Positions 39,975-47,584 of a DNA stretch of 64,000 nt are shown here, piece by piece. The DNA is from an uncultured Roseibium sp. GTDB lineage: Bacteria > Pseudomonadota > Alphaproteobacteria > Rhizobiales > Stappiaceae. The notes under the pieces are model-generated. The model was not told the DNA's origin. It was given only the letters and a program-made list of their open reading frames with translations, and searched no databases. Positions within the stretch are counted from its first letter, which is position 1; every line of letters starts with the position of its first letter. Both the position numbers and the translations under genes were made by a program. The DNA lies in the NCBI RefSeq assembly GCF_947494555.1, contig NZ_CANLVF010000005.1, forward strand, positions 248,001 to 312,000, in the 5' to 3' direction.

Positions 39975-40589
39975 TTACTTACCGAAACGGCGAACAAGTC
40001 CCAATCCACCGAGAGCCGCCAGCAGCAGACCGAAGCCGGCCGGAAGCGGTATGACCGCCATCGGTTCCTGCGTCGTCGTGATGGTCAGTGTCCAGGGCTG
40101 CGCCGGAAAAACGAGCCCCGCGGAGAGCTGAAAGTCCCAGATGGCGCCGCCAGCATCTTGAATGAGCGGGCCCGTTTCAGGGCCGAAGCTGTCGAAAAAC
40201 GAAGCAGCAATGCTTGCGCCGCTGTTGATCATGTTGACGTTGTCGTCAAAGAGGTTGGCCTGATCGTTGAACAACGCCGCTGTCATGTTTTGACCAATCT
40301 GGAAGTCATCAAACACCCCGGAAAAGGACAGAACAATACTCTGCACCGTCATACCGGCGGCTTGCGTGAATTTGATGCGGTCGGTCTCTGCAGGTGGTGT
40401 TGCATTGATGGATCCGAGGATCGTGTTTACGCCCGCGACGAGATTGACATTCGTGCTGCCGATGGCATCAAGGTCGCCGCTGATGCCCTCGTCATAAATT
40501 GTTACAGCAGACGCTTCCGTAAGTGGAGTGACCAAGAATAAGGCCGCCAATACTCCTGAGAGTACGTATTTTATTCCCCTACCTCCCAA
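39975..40589 (-). CDS. VPLPA-CTERM-type sorting-signal secreted protein
   Basis: 204 aa with N-terminal signal; C-terminus VIPLPAGFGLLLAALGGLGLVRRFGK = PLPAG motif + TM + basic tail. Confidence 0.85.
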   Translation of the reverse strand: MGGRGIKYVLSGVLAALFLVTPLTEASAVTIYDEGISGDLDAIGSTNVNLVAGVNTILGSINATPPAETDRIKFTQAAGMTVQSIVLSFSGVFDDFQIGQNMTAALFNDQANLFDDNVNMINSGASIAASFFDSFGPETGPLIQDAGGAIWDFQLSAGLVFPAQPWTLTITTTQEPMAVIPLPAGFGLLLAALGGLGLVRRFGK

Positions 40590-40904: not shown

Positions 40905-40940
40905 TGGAACAAAAATAAGTGGCGGGGAAATCCCCGCCAC
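40905..40940 (-). terminator. Intrinsic terminator
   Basis: Minus strand GTGGCGGGGA-TT-TCCCCGCCAC then ACTTATTTTTGTTCC, downstream of the SGNH-like gene. Confidence 0.65.
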
Positions 40941-41043
40941 CGAATACAACTAAAAAGCAATTTAAATTCAAAGGTATGGTGCTTCAGGTTCAGATGAACC
41001 AGTCGGCAAAAAGGGATGACGCGGTTTCCCGCAAAACCCGGTG

Positions 41044-41970
41044 CTAGACGATGGGATATCCATCGATCACGTTACGATAAAAGCCTGCAATGTCCTTGGA
41101 TGCATCCAGATCCGGGTGGAACTCATCTGTCCAACGGCCCCTGACGACATTCCGGATATCCACCAAGGTTACGTTCGGATACTGATCGTCCACTTCCTGC
41201 AGAAACCCGTAAAAACGGTCGACCAGGTAATGCAGGATGCCCGTGATCAGTTCCTTGTCGGCCTCGAAGCGGAAATTGCGTTTCACGAACGGCCGGCCGA
41301 ACCAGGGGCCATCGCTCTGCGCGACCGGATAGTCGTATCCGTGCACGAGCAATTGCGTGCGCGGCGCGCGCTTGCGCAGGTACTCGGCCACTTCTACGTA
41401 TCCATCTTTGAGTTTCTCCAGGATTGCTTCCAACCTGTCCATCTGGAGGAAATCTTCCGGCTGATCGGACCCCAGGGCAGCGCTCCGGTCTTTCAGGATT
41501 TTCGTAAGAGCAACGCCGCCCAAAACCTCATTACCGCCGCCTGAAAACACCAGATAGTCATAGACACCCGTGTCGACGTGAACGCGGAACGGCTTCTCGC
41601 TGATCATGTCGTCGAAGGAATGACCCGGCCACGCGGAACTTGCGGTCTGGTAGTATCCCTCGAGTATATCGAAGAAGGTCTTGTTGTAGCCAAGGTATCT
41701 GGACACTTCGATTACGACGTTAATCCAGGAATCGCCGCCGGCACAAACGCGCATCGGTGAGCGGCGAACCCGGATCGCTTGCGCATCGTCACCCTTTCCG
41801 GACGCAGACCATTCAACGGCAACCTGCTCTTGCGAAAGAGGCGCCCGCGTGTCGTCGAGAACATGATAAGCAAGACACCTGTTCGGGTCCTTTTCATATC
41901 GGGTATTGTTCAGGACCGTCGCTTCCAGGATATCGGCGTACATGACTACCTCCAAAGCTTGCGTCGACAC
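41044..41970 (-). CDS. SGNH-hydrolase-like protein
   Basis: 308 aa; block I-like CAGGDSWINV, FSGGGNEVLGG (block III-like), DEFHPD (block V D-x2-H). Confidence 0.6.
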   Translation of the reverse strand: MSTQALEVVMYADILEATVLNNTRYEKDPNRCLAYHVLDDTRAPLSQEQVAVEWSASGKGDDAQAIRVRRSPMRVCAGGDSWINVVIEVSRYLGYNKTFFDILEGYYQTASSAWPGHSFDDMISEKPFRVHVDTGVYDYLVFSGGGNEVLGGVALTKILKDRSAALGSDQPEDFLQMDRLEAILEKLKDGYVEVAEYLRKRAPRTQLLVHGYDYPVAQSDGPWFGRPFVKRNFRFEADKELITGILHYLVDRFYGFLQEVDDQYPNVTLVDIRNVVRGRWTDEFHPDLDASKDIAGFYRNVIDGYPIV

Positions 41971-42235
41971 ACATCAGGAATTCGCAATCCACTGGACCGT
42001 ATTCCTGATTGGCGGCGGAAACGGAAACCGGTTGCCGGCTCTTTTCCGCCTTTGTCCGCGCGGCCGGGACCGGGCGAACTGTCTTTTCCTTCGTGACTGC
42101 CGGTGGCCGGCAGGTCCGGTGCGGTTTTGAAATCCCTGGCGGGCTTCCTTTGACTGCGCCGTGTTGATTTTGTTTTACAATAATCATTGGCTTCACGCGC
42201 GTGAGAAAAGCGTGAATTAAAATCTTCACAAAAAG

Positions 42236-42265
42236 AAAGGCCCGGAAAATACCGGACCTTTCAGT
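42236..42265 (-). terminator. Intrinsic terminator of the subtilase operon
   Basis: Minus strand AAAGGTCCGG-TATTTT-CCGGGCCTTT followed by CTTTTTG. Confidence 0.65.
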
Positions 42266-42286
42266 AATGATTTGAATTTTACTTTA

Positions 42287-44428
42287 TCAAATTACGAGAA
42301 ATTTACCCAGGCGAGCACGATTCTCGTCACTCTGGCCCACCAACTCTACCTTTTTCAGGATTGGCAGATAATTCTCGCTCTCAGCTTGCTTGACGTCTAC
42401 GCTGGAACAGGTAGCAAACGCCTCCGATAAGCGCCTGGCGACAAAGGGCGCAGCAACACTCGTGCCCTGCAAGGACGCATAGGACCCGCTGCGTGTACCT
42501 GCTGCGACAACGCCTGGAACAATATTCGATCGGTCTGAAATCGCGGTGCAGTCAACGCTGCCGACACTGGTGTCGGGACTGACCTTGCCTGCCGAACTGT
42601 AGTTGGACGCAATTGGCTTATCTGCATCCCAGCCGGTCTCGGCGGACGGTCTGCAACCGGAAACAACGAGGGCTACCGATCCGGTTGCCATGCCGTTCAT
42701 CGAGCCGAACCGACGGACGTGGCTACCGCCAATGTCTTCCTGTGCCGGCCCGCCACTGTCGTCGGCGATCCTGTATTTTTTGTCTCTCAGATAGCTCTGG
42801 CGATTGCCCTTTCGAAAGGCTTCCAGATCGACGTCACGCTGCACCCAGAGATTTATCACGCCGTGATCGGATGGTGCCGCCTTGCCACGTGTCAATGTCA
42901 CAGTCCATACGCCACCCGGTGCTGCCGGCAAGTTCTCATCGTCCGGTTCCGTCGGAGCCAAAGCAAGCAGAACGCGCCACCTGCCGGTCCCGCGGTGATT
43001 GTCGAGGCTGATCAATCCGATTGCCTTGCCACCTGTCGGGCCACCAAGCCTGACCGCCTGGAACCGTCGCGGATCGCCCGTGGTATGCGACCCGTCCGGC
43101 GTCAGATCCATTGAGGTTTCGGTCATTCCAAGTGGCGACTTAAGACCTATGGAACAGCTTTGCGGATCGAAACCTGCCGGGAACCACATTTCCAGATAGT
43201 TGGAGGTCCGATCGTTCGGTTGTGTCACCCATTTGAATGAAAAGCTGCCATCCTCAAGATCCTTGGCGGAAATCTCGCCGTGAAGGCGATCCTGGAAGGT
43301 ATTCCCGGATGGAAGTACGATTGCAGTCGGGCGCCCCAAATTGCGACGTTCGCCCACAACTTCATTGATTGCAGCTTCCAATTCGCTTTCGCCATCATGG
43401 CGGCCGCCTGAAAACCCATAACTGCAATTGATGGTGACACGAATGTCCTCAACCCCATACCCGGCTGCGATGCGTTCGGCGCGCTCCAGGATATAATGCA
43501 CAGCAGCGAGCAGATAACTGGACTTGCCAAAACTCGACGTATCCCAGGGATAGGTATTCGGCAGCTGAACTGCGACCAGACGCGTTTCCTCTGGTGGGGC
43601 TTCGGATTTATTGGGGTCATGGCCTGCCGCCACATCCATGATGTGCGCACCATGGGTGACGAGGCGATTGATCGCAGCACTGGAACCGAACTGCGGTTCG
43701 GCGGCGCCGGCGGCTGCATAAAGTGCATCCTCGTCATCACCGTAGTTGCGGATAAGGCCTTCGATTGCATCCCTGGTGAATTCCCGTCCGAACAAAACAC
43801 CGGACGGGCGACCACTCCGATTTTCAGCGGACTGCAACCAGCAAAATTCCAGCCGTGTGCGCTTTCCGTCTGCTGCCCGGAAGTTGCCGTGCGCAAATGG
43901 AATTCCGTCGTCGATCACACCAAGAACGTTGATCGCCTTCGGCTGTGAAGCACCGGTTGGAACTTCCGGATCGGGTGACCAGTCCGGCTCACCTGGCACT
44001 CTATTCTGCAACCGGTTCATAGCCTTTTCCTCGACTGGAAAGGCCATTCTGAAACGCGCTTTGCCAACTTCATCAGTTTGGGTCGGCGCTGTCAGGTTCA
44101 AGGACAGGCTGTCCAGCGATATGCCCTCGTCGGATGGATTTTCAACGACCAGCGGCCAGAACCGCAAGGCAACATCATCTTTGGTGCCCCAAAGTGTCGG
44201 AATCCATGTTCCACGGCCTGCATGCTCAGCAATGTTCTCCAGCAAGCCGGGTTTCACCGGCTTGGGATGTTCTGCAAGAGCGGTCAGATATTTGAGTTTG
44301 TCCGTATGATATGCCGGGAACGTATAGGGATTACCTATCCCGAAGTTCCAGTTTTCATATGGGCCGAGGTAATTCTCGAGTTCGACGGCCTCGGTCATCC
44401 CGCTGCCGCTTGTGTTCGCATCGGTCAT
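42287..44428 (-). CDS. S8-family (subtilisin-like) serine peptidase
   Basis: 713 aa; Asp region NVLGVIDDGIPFAHGNF, His region VTHGAHIMDVAAG, Asn region AIVLPSGN, Ser region LQGTSVAAPFVARR. Confidence 0.88.
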   Translation of the reverse strand: MTDANTSGSGMTEAVELENYLGPYENWNFGIGNPYTFPAYHTDKLKYLTALAEHPKPVKPGLLENIAEHAGRGTWIPTLWGTKDDVALRFWPLVVENPSDEGISLDSLSLNLTAPTQTDEVGKARFRMAFPVEEKAMNRLQNRVPGEPDWSPDPEVPTGASQPKAINVLGVIDDGIPFAHGNFRAADGKRTRLEFCWLQSAENRSGRPSGVLFGREFTRDAIEGLIRNYGDDEDALYAAAGAAEPQFGSSAAINRLVTHGAHIMDVAAGHDPNKSEAPPEETRLVAVQLPNTYPWDTSSFGKSSYLLAAVHYILERAERIAAGYGVEDIRVTINCSYGFSGGRHDGESELEAAINEVVGERRNLGRPTAIVLPSGNTFQDRLHGEISAKDLEDGSFSFKWVTQPNDRTSNYLEMWFPAGFDPQSCSIGLKSPLGMTETSMDLTPDGSHTTGDPRRFQAVRLGGPTGGKAIGLISLDNHRGTGRWRVLLALAPTEPDDENLPAAPGGVWTVTLTRGKAAPSDHGVINLWVQRDVDLEAFRKGNRQSYLRDKKYRIADDSGGPAQEDIGGSHVRRFGSMNGMATGSVALVVSGCRPSAETGWDADKPIASNYSSAGKVSPDTSVGSVDCTAISDRSNIVPGVVAAGTRSGSYASLQGTSVAAPFVARRLSEAFATCSSVDVKQAESENYLPILKKVELVGQSDENRARLGKFLVI

Positions 44429-44445
44429 TTTGGAGCCGCCCTTCG

Positions 44446-45573
44446 TTAGAGGTCAAACTCATTGACCGCATTCGTCCAAAGCCATGTGAATTGCTCACTC
44501 ACGTCGACGCTCAATTGCGGCAGTTCGCTCACGCCATGTTCGCCCCATTTAGACGACTGATAGTGCGACACCATGAAATCGGAATCAGCGCGGGCCTCAT
44601 ACTTCAAGCCCCTGAGCTCTGTATCGACACCACATTTCTTCAAGACGATCTCACCGACTGTCTTGCCGAGAAGAGCTCCTGCCCAGCTGTCAACCGGGTA
44701 ATGCACGCCAGCGACCGTGCGGCTGACAGCGATACGTTCGGCTTGCTTGCGGAGCAGTTTCTTGCGCTTTTCACCGTCGGGATAGTGAGTGCCGGATGCG
44801 TCGATCAAACCTTCCAGCATACGTGTGACGGCAAAAGCTTCGGTCGCGTGCGCACTCGGGAAGCTGCCATGGCCAGGTGTCGGGATCATCGGCAGGATTG
44901 TTGTTCCGATCCTGTCGGGCCGCCGAATGGCCAGATGGTGCTTCACGATCATTGCCACGTGGGCCGCCAGGACCTGCGTCAGTGTGATCAGTTCCAGTGT
45001 CTTGCCGTTACGGGCCGGCACTAGACCGAGGATCATTGCAAAATAGGGGGTCGGGAAGCCGAGCTGCGACGTGATTTCCGCCGTGCGCTCCGGACGCTGA
45101 TCCATATAGGCACGGACAAATTCGAGTTGTTTGTCGAAGAGATCACCGTCAGGCCGTGCAATGCGGAAAAACGGATGTGCGTCGCCGGTGCTGCGGGATC
45201 GATAAGAGATGGTAACCTCTTTCGTATCCTTTGGCGCTTCCCAGACAATCTCACTGAAAAAATCACTTAAATAAAGAGACGCTCTCACCCAGTCAGACCA
45301 TCTGTCGAGATTGTCCGTGGAAGAAAACTCCAGTTCCCGAGACGGATGCGTAGCAGCATCGCCAGCTACGTGAGCAATCGCCTGCGCACTGGTCTGCAAT
45401 CCCTGTACGGTTAAAGGATCAAGTGCACCACCAGCACCGGCCCCCAACAACCCGCCAAGACCCGAAGCGTTCAGCCCACCGAGCCCACCAAGACCGCCGA
45501 GGCCGCCAAGCCCGCCGAGACCACCAAGTCCGCCCAGACCACCTAGTCCGCCGAGCCCACCAAAATACGCCAT
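44446..45573 (-). CDS. PAP2/vanadium-haloperoxidase-superfamily protein with N-terminal Gly-Gly-Leu repeat tract
   Basis: 375 aa; KHHLAIRRP, FPSAHATEAF, SRTVAGVHYPVDSWAG match K-x6-RP / PS-x-H / SR-x5-H-x3-D. Confidence 0.88.
   Translation of the reverse strand: MAYFGGLGGLGGLGGLGGLGGLGGLGGLGGLGGLNASGLGGLLGAGAGGALDPLTVQGLQTSAQAIAHVAGDAATHPSRELEFSSTDNLDRWSDWVRASLYLSDFFSEIVWEAPKDTKEVTISYRSRSTGDAHPFFRIARPDGDLFDKQLEFVRAYMDQRPERTAEITSQLGFPTPYFAMILGLVPARNGKTLELITLTQVLAAHVAMIVKHHLAIRRPDRIGTTILPMIPTPGHGSFPSAHATEAFAVTRMLEGLIDASGTHYPDGEKRKKLLRKQAERIAVSRTVAGVHYPVDSWAGALLGKTVGEIVLKKCGVDTELRGLKYEARADSDFMVSHYQSSKWGEHGVSELPQLSVDVSEQFTWLWTNAVNEFDL
45472..45561 (-). repeat. Degenerate 9-nt repeat tract encoding (GGL)10
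   Basis: Codons 5-34 of the PAP2 gene read GGLGGLGGL... with variable synonymous codons. Confidence 0.9.
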
Positions 45574-45596
45574 ATACGCCTCCCCAATGAAATGCG

Positions 45597-47240
45597 TTAT
45601 TGAAATCCAGCAGCGCGCAGCGCGCGCGCAACATTTTTTCCACTCGAATACTCTGCGGCCGGGTGCGCCCGCATATAGCCCTCGACAGAAAAATCCGGCT
45701 GCCTGCGCCGAAGTTCGTCGGCGACGAGTTTCGCCTCATCTGTTCGCTCTAAGAAATGCAACGCTGTAATCTTTACGCGCAACGTCGACAGATGCCGCTG
45801 ATTCCGCTCGAGTGAGCTGTCAGCAAATTTGAGCGCTTTTTCATAATCTTCAGCGGCAAGGTACGCAGTCGCACTCAGACAATCGTAGAAATACTTGAAC
45901 GGATCGATCGGTGAGAGCTTTCGCGCTTTGTCCGCGGCATGCACGGCCTGTTCACCCGAATCCTGGAACGCATAGAGCGCACTGCGCAATAGCCACGAAA
46001 GTGCCTCATTCGGATTATGCTCCAGCGCATTTTCGTATCGATGCGAAGCCACATCCAGCCGCCGCAACAAGTTGTTGTGCGCGAACCCGTCAATGGTCAT
46101 GCAGAATGCGTTTTCAGGGTCGATATCGAGCGCCTTGCTCGTGCTGCCCACGGCGTTTTTCGTATCCTTCGCAGGGTCTGAACTCCAACCATTTACGACG
46201 CTGAGCACATGCCACTTTCCGCGCCAGGCGTGCACCTCGGCCGATCGCGGCGAACGGCTAAGCGCCTCGTCAAGCAGCTCGCGTGACTTTGCAAAATCAC
46301 GCAATGTCGAACGATGCATCAGGCTGACGCTCGCCATCAGAAGTTTGTGGTCGGCGATCTCGCTGATCGGCCGGCCCCGGACGTATTTCAGCGTGTCGGA
46401 TGCGATCGCGTTTCCGACCGACGTCACAATATTGGTGAGACCCTGGCCGGCGTCGCTGATGAAGTCGTTCAGCTTTCCGCTGAACTGGCGCGTCCACAAA
46501 ATCCGCCCGGTTTCCGCGTCGAGGAAATCGACGTCGGTAATGACTTCATCACCGATCTGGCGAATGCTGCCGGCGACACAGTAATCAACGGAGAGTTTCG
46601 ACCGAATCGCGTCGATATCGATCCGGCGACCAGCAAGGGCGCGGCTGGAAAAATGCGAAATAACGGCAAGCAGGTTAGTACGCGACAGGGAGCGGCAAAT
46701 CTCCTCCGCAAACCAATCGCCAAGAATTGTGAGTTCGGGATTGTTTTCCAAACTCAGCAACGGCATCACCGTCACAGTAGGGACCGGTGGCCGGGGCAAT
46801 GATGACGACGGAGAGCGGAACAGGGCGTGGATCTGTTCCGGGCTGGCACGAACCGAATCCCGCCATTCCTCGAACAGCGGTGCAGGCACATCAAGGCCTT
46901 CCAAAAACGTGCCCTGCCCAGGCTGACCGGCGAAAACCACGTTGCTCAGGTCCAGCGTGACTTCCGAATTGTTGGTGGTGATAAGCTGGTTGTAGTAGGG
47001 GCCCATTGCCGACTTGATGTCGGACAACGCGCGCCTCAGGCTCTGTCTGCCGGTATCGTAGCAGGAAGCGCCCCAAAGCGTTTCCTGAAGGAAGGTGCGG
47101 CTGCGGCAGCCGTGTGGCGCTGTCGCAAGCAACGCGAAGATCGCGCGGTGCTTTTTGCCTGTGATCTCAAACGCTCCGGGCTCAATAGAGCGAACGATAC
47201 AGGACCCGAACAAGCTGATTTCCAAAACCTTACCGCGCAT
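45597..47240 (-). CDS. Winged-helix (OmpR/SARP-like) regulator with TolB-like and TPR regions
   Basis: N-terminal LEISLFGSCIVRS...KKHRAIFALLATAPHGCRSRTFLQETLWGASCYDTGRQSLRRALSDIK; central VTVMPLLSLENNPELTILGDWFAEEICRSLSR; TPR-like C-terminus; ATG at 47240. Confidence 0.8.
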   Translation of the reverse strand: MRGKVLEISLFGSCIVRSIEPGAFEITGKKHRAIFALLATAPHGCRSRTFLQETLWGASCYDTGRQSLRRALSDIKSAMGPYYNQLITTNNSEVTLDLSNVVFAGQPGQGTFLEGLDVPAPLFEEWRDSVRASPEQIHALFRSPSSSLPRPPVPTVTVMPLLSLENNPELTILGDWFAEEICRSLSRTNLLAVISHFSSRALAGRRIDIDAIRSKLSVDYCVAGSIRQIGDEVITDVDFLDAETGRILWTRQFSGKLNDFISDAGQGLTNIVTSVGNAIASDTLKYVRGRPISEIADHKLLMASVSLMHRSTLRDFAKSRELLDEALSRSPRSAEVHAWRGKWHVLSVVNGWSSDPAKDTKNAVGSTSKALDIDPENAFCMTIDGFAHNNLLRRLDVASHRYENALEHNPNEALSWLLRSALYAFQDSGEQAVHAADKARKLSPIDPFKYFYDCLSATAYLAAEDYEKALKFADSSLERNQRHLSTLRVKITALHFLERTDEAKLVADELRRRQPDFSVEGYMRAHPAAEYSSGKNVARALRAAGFQ

Positions 47241-47383
47241 GCCCCATCGCCTCGAGAAAAGTACGTATTCTATAGAACAGCACTTATAGCCACTATCCAA
47301 CCACTTCACACTTTTTTCACGCTCGCCGAAAGCCAACTCCCTCTAAACTCACGGAGTGAGGAACAGAACCGCGAGCAAGAAAA

Positions 47384-47584
47384 TTGTCTGAAAAAAGCTC
47401 TATTATTGATGATGTTTCGGATGTTGTTGATTTTTTCCTAGCATGGAACAATCATCGCGAAACAGTGTTGAAGATTTCTGAAATGGATCATCTGGACGAT
47501 GATCAGAAGAAGACTTTGCACTGGCTCGTGAAGATGGCCGACAGGGTTAGTCTGACCGACCTGGAAAAGGACGATCTGCACTGA
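47384..47584 (+). CDS. Small acidic hypothetical protein
   Basis: 66 aa, TTG start, divergent from the regulator. Confidence 0.4.
   Translation: MSEKSSIIDDVSDVVDFFLAWNNHRETVLKISEMDHLDDDQKKTLHWLVKMADRVSLTDLEKDDLH

Follow-up and report, generated by a model that had tools for sequence, protein, structure and literature searches.

A mobile three-gene module in which a TPR-containing regulator co-varies with the tandem peptide array of an adjacent PAP2 enzyme

Organization and distribution of the module

This report concerns a gene cluster of an uncultured Roseibium sp. (RefSeq assembly GCF_947494555.1), found within a 64,000-nucleotide stretch of contig NZ_CANLVF010000005.1 (positions 248,001 to 312,000), hereafter called the window. 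The cluster consists of three co-oriented genes, which specify a regulator (REG), an acid-phosphatase-like enzyme (PAP2), and a subtilase of the S8 peptidase type (S8); an SGNH/GDSL-like hydrolase gene lies beyond them (Table 1). The PAP2 protein possesses a perfect tandem peptide array near its N-terminus, and the repeated unit of this array co-varies with residues in the C-terminal TPR region of REG. The trio is a mobile unit that was previously undescribed, no account of it having been found in open-access papers (subscription-only literature lay outside the search). REG and PAP2 are separated by 23 bp, and PAP2 and S8 by 17 bp. These gaps, together with the gene order and two terminators, had been given in a preliminary description made from the sequence alone, and all are borne out by the gene calls and hairpins of the window.

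Table 1. Coordinates of the module and associated features within the window
Feature	Coordinates	Strand	Remarks
REG (regulator)	45597..47240	-	547 aa from ATG at 47240; OmpR/SARP-type winged helix, TolB/FlgO-like domain, C-terminal TPRs
REG residues 421-547	45600..45980	-	TPR segment co-varying with the array unit
REG sites over the family-wise threshold	506 = 45723-45725, 531 = 45648-45650, 533 = 45642-45644, 537 = 45630-45632	-	
PAP2	44446..45573	-	375 aa; soluble class A acid-phosphatase fold, catalytic residues intact, C-terminal WLW..A..E motif conserved
Tandem array (GGL)x10	45472..45561	-	PAP2 residues 5-34; 9/10 DNA units differ; predicted disordered
S8 peptidase	42287..44428	-	713 aa; Csp-like subtilase fold, N-terminal prodomain-like region, triad intact
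SGNH/GDSL-like hydrolase	41044..41970	-	308 aa; accessory, separate gene beyond the S8 terminator
Intrinsic terminator-like hairpin 3' of S8	42235..42262	-	
Terminator-like hairpin 3' of SGNH	40918..40941	-	
Operator-like site upstream of REG	47305..47322	-	GCGTGAAAAAAGTGTGAA; GTGA-N7-GTGA, 11-bp direct repeat
Second operator-like direct repeat, between S8 and SGNH	42199..42216	+	GCGTGAGAAAAGCGTGAA; orientation opposite to the REG site
Small divergent gene	47384..47584	+	66 aa, TTG start

The sample consists of about 160 loci (designated L with a number) from alpha- and betaproteobacterial chromosomes and plasmids, a few genomes having entered twice via different collections, such as L180 and L085, whose contigs are of the same length. 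In every complete locus REG, PAP2, and S8 are kept together with both active sites intact. Of 249 genomes from the order to which the window belongs, 15 contain relatives of S8, as do 49 plasmid records. An independent scan of genome contigs with a PAP2 profile recovered 80 loci, where the trio occurs in the same order unless a contig end cuts the locus. A further 48/395 genomes, from the order to which Phaeobacter and Paracoccus belong (by the matches, Rhodobacterales), also have relatives; most of these show a second arrangement, with REG divergent from PAP2 and S8 in some cases convergent. The overall distribution is patchy and plasmid-rich, and the genes around the loci are mostly metabolic. 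On one Paracoccus plasmid the module (L181, 463-3210) adjoins a type VI secretion ATPase gene (tssH). The initial proposal of a coordinately controlled hydrolase system, which was to be abandoned should the genes not be syntenic in relatives, survives this comparison and is strongly supported, with the trio present in every complete locus and a dedicated operator upstream of REG.

PAP2 scores above its Pfam cut-off (32.3 versus 27.2 bits). The motifs K-x6-RP, PSxH, and R-x5-H-x3-D, along with the predicted fold, place it with the PAP2/class A acid phosphatases; residues K211, R218, H242, R285, H291, and D295 are invariant in 85 homologues, and S240 is retained in 84 of them. The predicted structure reveals a confident acid-phosphatase-like core, with TM-scores of up to 0.70 to class A enzymes (normalized by target), and a disordered N-terminal array in front of it. 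Assignment as a vanadium haloperoxidase was rejected, since the fold search ranks acid phosphatases first and gives haloperoxidases E values above 1e-3. The fold and catalytic motifs are shared with class A acid phosphatases (7f17, PhoN/PhoC); the latter are, however, small and periplasmic, whereas PAP2 lacks a signal peptide and possesses extra N- and C-terminal parts besides the array. The S8 protein falls just below its Pfam cut-off (20.4 versus 21.8 bits). Its Asp-His-Ser triad and oxyanion Asn are those of a Csp-like subtilase: H259, S657, and the oxyanion N376 are invariant in 69 homologues, and position 173 is Asp in 67 and Glu in two. The nearest structures are those of clostridial Csp germination proteases, from which S8 differs in its low identity (about 15%), its different operon, and the absence of a spore link. 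Conservation across homologues upholds the earlier statement that the catalytic motifs of PAP2 and S8 are intact. Inspection by eye agreed, moreover, that no enzyme begins with a signal peptide, and no Sec-like start was visible in any protein of the locus. This fits the cytosolic location that had been suggested; for the suggested alternative, export by a non-Sec route, there was no evidence.

The tandem peptide array

The GGL array is the sole array of such kind in the 7-Mb genome. A perfect tandem array near the N-terminus, with a unit of 2-5 residues, is present in 167/167 PAP2 proteins and in none of 200 REG/S8 proteins. The period is three residues in 139 PAP2 proteins, four in 26, two in one, and five in one; the median array has 8.7 copies and 27 residues, and 77 different units are represented. 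The array of L245 was recovered once its late PAP2 start was taken into account. In L075 (8128-10957), REG is split over two reading frames and the array lies in a different frame from the PAP2 core, from which this copy appears to be decayed or mis-assembled. The preliminary description had recognized a glycine-rich PAP2 but had missed that the array is hypervariable and perfectly periodic, as well as its co-variation with REG.

Identical codons one unit apart were observed 674 times, compared with 943 expected from the codon usage of the same locus, and codon sharing is below expectation in 83 of 100 arrays. Since adjacent units share codons less than expected, the amino acid repeat is kept while repetitiveness of the DNA is avoided. 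The arrays of L092, L106, and L074 are nearly perfect at the DNA level, and that of L039 (6623-7690) is composed of two unit blocks, NAH x3 followed by TAQ x4, apparently caught in the middle of unit turnover. These examples suggest that, in turnover, a variant unit may first expand and its codons drift afterwards.

Switching of the unit throughout the array is rapid. Among PAP2 pairs with at least 90% core identity (85-sequence set) the unit is common to only 1/6 pairs, and L090 (SAGV) and L093 (SGGY) possess different units at 97% core identity. Between random pairs of loci, the unit is the same in only 2.9% of cases. In the 13 genomes with two to three copies of the module, the units always differ within the genome. 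On Phaeobacter plasmids (L020, L152-L158) the unit NSF is constant, and close strains have 5, 6, or 7 copies of it; most of these plasmids carry the same hypothetical genes downstream on the opposite strand.

Glycine accounts for 45% of unit composition and GGX-like units are common, which, together with the predicted disorder, would suit a self-assembling low-complexity tail of the polyglycine-II or amyloid-like kind, any co-variation with REG being incidental. Charged or polar units such as AGR, NAE, GHE, GKM, and NHQ also occur and misfit one polymer type, and a tail of this kind predicts no co-variation with REG, contrary to the results given below; we find this explanation scarcely credible.

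Co-variation of the regulator and the control region

The regulators differ by exchange of their N-terminus, the C-terminal TolB/FlgO-like and TPR parts being common to all. The N-terminus is a SARP/OmpR-like winged helix in 128 cases and a class III cyclase with intact motif in 29; five others have an OmpR winged helix plus a cyclase-like domain devoid of the catalytic motif, and one is mixed. L020 (4926-7049) and L116 (7505-9730) exemplify the combined type, the winged helix preceding the motif-less domain, as if one output had replaced the other. To judge by these sequences, the sensing part is retained and the output domain appears to be exchangeable. The N-terminus of the window REG resembles the SARP/OmpR types within the module family and is preceded by the conserved 11-bp repeat; Pfam gave no hit for its winged helix.

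The effect of sharing a unit upon segment identity, conditioned on the rest of the locus, was evaluated by label permutation. Sharing the unit lifts the identity of REG 401-547 by 0.072 (0/500 permutations), and in the same test the effect is absent from the winged helix, TolB, and first TPR part of REG and from the N-terminal region of S8. Co-variation with the unit is confined to C-terminal TPR residues of REG. Per-site testing revealed that only REG residues 506, 531, 533, and 537 exceed the family-wise permutation threshold; site 533 differs in 80% of pairs with different units versus 5% of pairs with the same unit, and 0/365 PAP2 core sites reach an excess of 0.45. Single-column P values for co-change on the tree are confounded by branch length, and an unbiased ranked scan of 6,429 residue traits, on a tree from which REG and the array were left out, was relied on instead. 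As co-change partner, REG 537=A ranks first for I-units (5/7 changes), 533=T for F/Y-units, and 533=L for V-units. The pairing of an all-small unit with 537=W was discarded, as it is frequent yet has only one shared branch on the tree. A universal residue code was likewise rejected, held-out loci using other residues such that no single look-up table fits.

Within close pairs (at least 90% core identity), divergence along the locus peaks in the REG 3' end and the array. In co-oriented loci the REG 3' end is about 25 bp from PAP2 and the peak extends across both, as it would if recombination moved the array and the adjacent end of REG as one piece with no function connecting them. On the other flank of the array, however, PAP2 sites at an equal distance show no co-variation, and it is particular residues, not whole tracts, that follow the unit. 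The 56 loci with divergent REG provide a replicate: the effect is 0.081 (1/1000 permutations) and appears only in REG 331-430, a segment separated from the array by about 1 kb or more, including parts of REG that do not track the unit. At that distance physical linkage is no explanation. This replicate is supportive rather than overwhelming. On the basis of the PAP2-side control and the divergent loci, recombination linkage was ruled out as the cause of the co-variation, and we hold mere linkage to be a very unlikely account of the module.

Allowing up to one mismatch, the genome contains no match to the operator other than the site upstream of REG. Of 63 winged-helix loci, 52 have a GTGA-N7-GTGA sequence upstream of REG (0.7% expected), compared with 0/28 cyclase loci; there is a sharp preference for a spacing of exactly seven bases. 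The operator consensus is CGTGAAAAAAGTGTGAA, followed by a TTGG element. Control of the cyclase-type operons through a CRP box was considered and rejected, there being no enrichment over shuffles.

The small divergent gene has homologues in 56/62 SARP-type co-oriented loci, where it shares the control region with the module, and in 0/28 cyclase-type loci. Its product (consensus DlvDFy.rWpelR...L.Wli..aDRvgp.Dl) matches no Pfam family above cut-off and does not co-vary with the array unit; it is possibly a fourth component of the module. The SGNH protein gave a weak Pfam match under the cut-off (14.9 bits, E 0.04), and the blocks GDSW, GGGN, and DEFH, readable in its sequence, identify it as an SGNH/GDSL hydrolase. 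In the PAP2-profile scan, only four loci, the closest of those from Roseibium, have this gene beside the module. All five loci with an SGNH gene possess the second operator-like repeat, the background being 0.09 sites per kb; SGNH is thus plausibly a member of the regulon, a status limited to close Roseibium relatives. The repeat is kept in these five Roseibium-type loci, although the intergenic DNA on its flanks is mostly not conserved. Elsewhere in the window, the protein encoded at 39975-40589 (-) looks exported and terminates in IPLPAGFGLLLAALGGLGLVRRFGK, a VPLPA-CTERM-like sorting signal.

Interpretation and comparison with known systems

We think it rather probable that this is a self-regulated mobile module in which the array is a docking tag recognized by the TPRs of REG, such that REG senses its own enzyme. 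From the co-variation we infer a lock-and-key type of recognition. REG would comprise a swappable output (OmpR/SARP-type winged helix or class III nucleotide cyclase) coupled to a TPR domain that binds the repeated, disordered N-terminal tail of PAP2, and would activate its own operon from the GTGA-N7-GTGA site. Occupancy of the TPRs by the tail could then inform REG of how much enzyme is present or in what state. PAP2 and S8 would act as effectors, and tagged PAP2 may be cut or released by S8. Through repetition, binding would gain avidity or become independent of register, which would explain why all units must be identical, and wholesale unit switching with a matching change in REG may keep recognition private between copies in one cell or from plasmid newcomers. 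An analogue is MalT, a transcription activator whose superhelical repeat domain is bound by the system's own proteins (MalK, Aes, and MalY), with MalK and Aes reporting to MalT as PAP2 would to REG. MalT has neither a tandem peptide array nor specificity switching.

Several points weigh against docking of the array by REG. The proposed binding rests on co-variation, the structure predictions covering PAP2 and S8. None of 658 S8 sites reaches the 0.45 excess, but the permutation threshold for S8 is not computable. The residue code is lineage-dependent in the held-out loci, label permutation removes phylogenetic structure incompletely, and the binary code tests were selected post hoc. When the divergent replicate is limited to fewer, closer pairs (core at least 0.5), 40/1000 permutations reach the effect, and no single site stood out. 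Given the rate at which random pairs share units (2.9%), the differences within genomes are expected by chance anyway.

The array might instead be a scaffold that tethers PAP2, and S8, to REG, a stress or phage signal releasing or positioning two toxic hydrolases in the manner of abortive infection. The patchy, plasmid-rich distribution and the intact catalytic residues of both hydrolases are congruent with this, as is the one module copy on a plasmid that also carries qatA; this known anti-phage gene (19531-19587 of L019) is located about 9 kb from the module on a Roseibium plasmid. Conversely, no immunity gene accompanies the module and its neighbors are mostly metabolic. None of the proteins belongs to a PADLOC model (best E 0.04, regulator only) or matches a PHROG family, and carriage by viruses was rejected, viral contigs having yielded only weak partial PAP2 matches and none with the module. 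The role in defence raised in the preliminary description found no positive support here, and we judge the scaffold rather unlikely.

If the array is the docking tag that we favor, the module would represent a recognition code of natural origin that evolves fast and links a TPR domain to a simple repeated peptide. The sequences of more than 75 natural variants and of their partners make the specificity of peptide-TPR pairs directly testable, and the set could supply orthogonal peptide-receptor parts. Many alphaproteobacterial plasmids have a recurrent trio annotated "hypothetical or adenylate cyclase - PAP2 - S8 peptidase", for which the module accounts; it also shows how a perfect protein repeat can be maintained with non-repetitive DNA and wholesale unit replacement.

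RRNPP systems are characterized by a TPR receptor of 250-500 residues beside a cognate small propeptide (10-100 residues) with an export signal (PMC10075063). As in Rap, Rgg, NprR, PlcR, and PrgX, an HTH-TPR regulator adjoins a candidate peptide ligand, ligand and TPR co-vary, and plasmid carriage is found. A peptide-signal module can accordingly be envisaged, in which S8 or another protease frees oligopeptides from the array that are read by the TPRs of the REG next door; the association of winged helix and TPR receptor with a repetitive peptide source and a subtilase, the signal-receptor-like co-variation with conserved flanks, and the quick divergence of unit types are in keeping with it. 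If true, this would be an RRNPP-like peptide-signaling family in Gram-negative bacteria, with units as pherotypes by the dozen. REG, at 547 residues (about 550 in the module generally) and with a TolB-like domain, nevertheless exceeds the receptor size range, and the repeat lies within a 375-residue enzyme with no visible signal peptide rather than in a small secreted propeptide. S8 has no signal peptide either and shows no co-variation with the unit, every array is part of an intact enzyme, such that free peptide is not the sole product, and Phaeobacter alleles within species share one unit; we regard peptide signaling as improbable. By comparison, ComQXPA/Agr pherotype loci also concentrate divergence in the signal and the sensing part of the receptor, the rest being conserved, but employ two-component membrane receptors and secreted modified peptides.

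SARP/OmpR-type regulators recognize direct repeats spaced by 11 bp, one turn of the helix. Large SARPs such as AfsR combine an OmpR-type winged helix with C-terminal TPRs and direct repeats at this spacing (PMC10936776), as REG, with its putative winged helix, also does. REG differs in possessing a TolB-like domain in place of the NOD ATPase and in having a single dedicated target, the repeats of which precede a TTGG element rather than lying close to the -10; and in 28 loci its winged helix is replaced by a cyclase.

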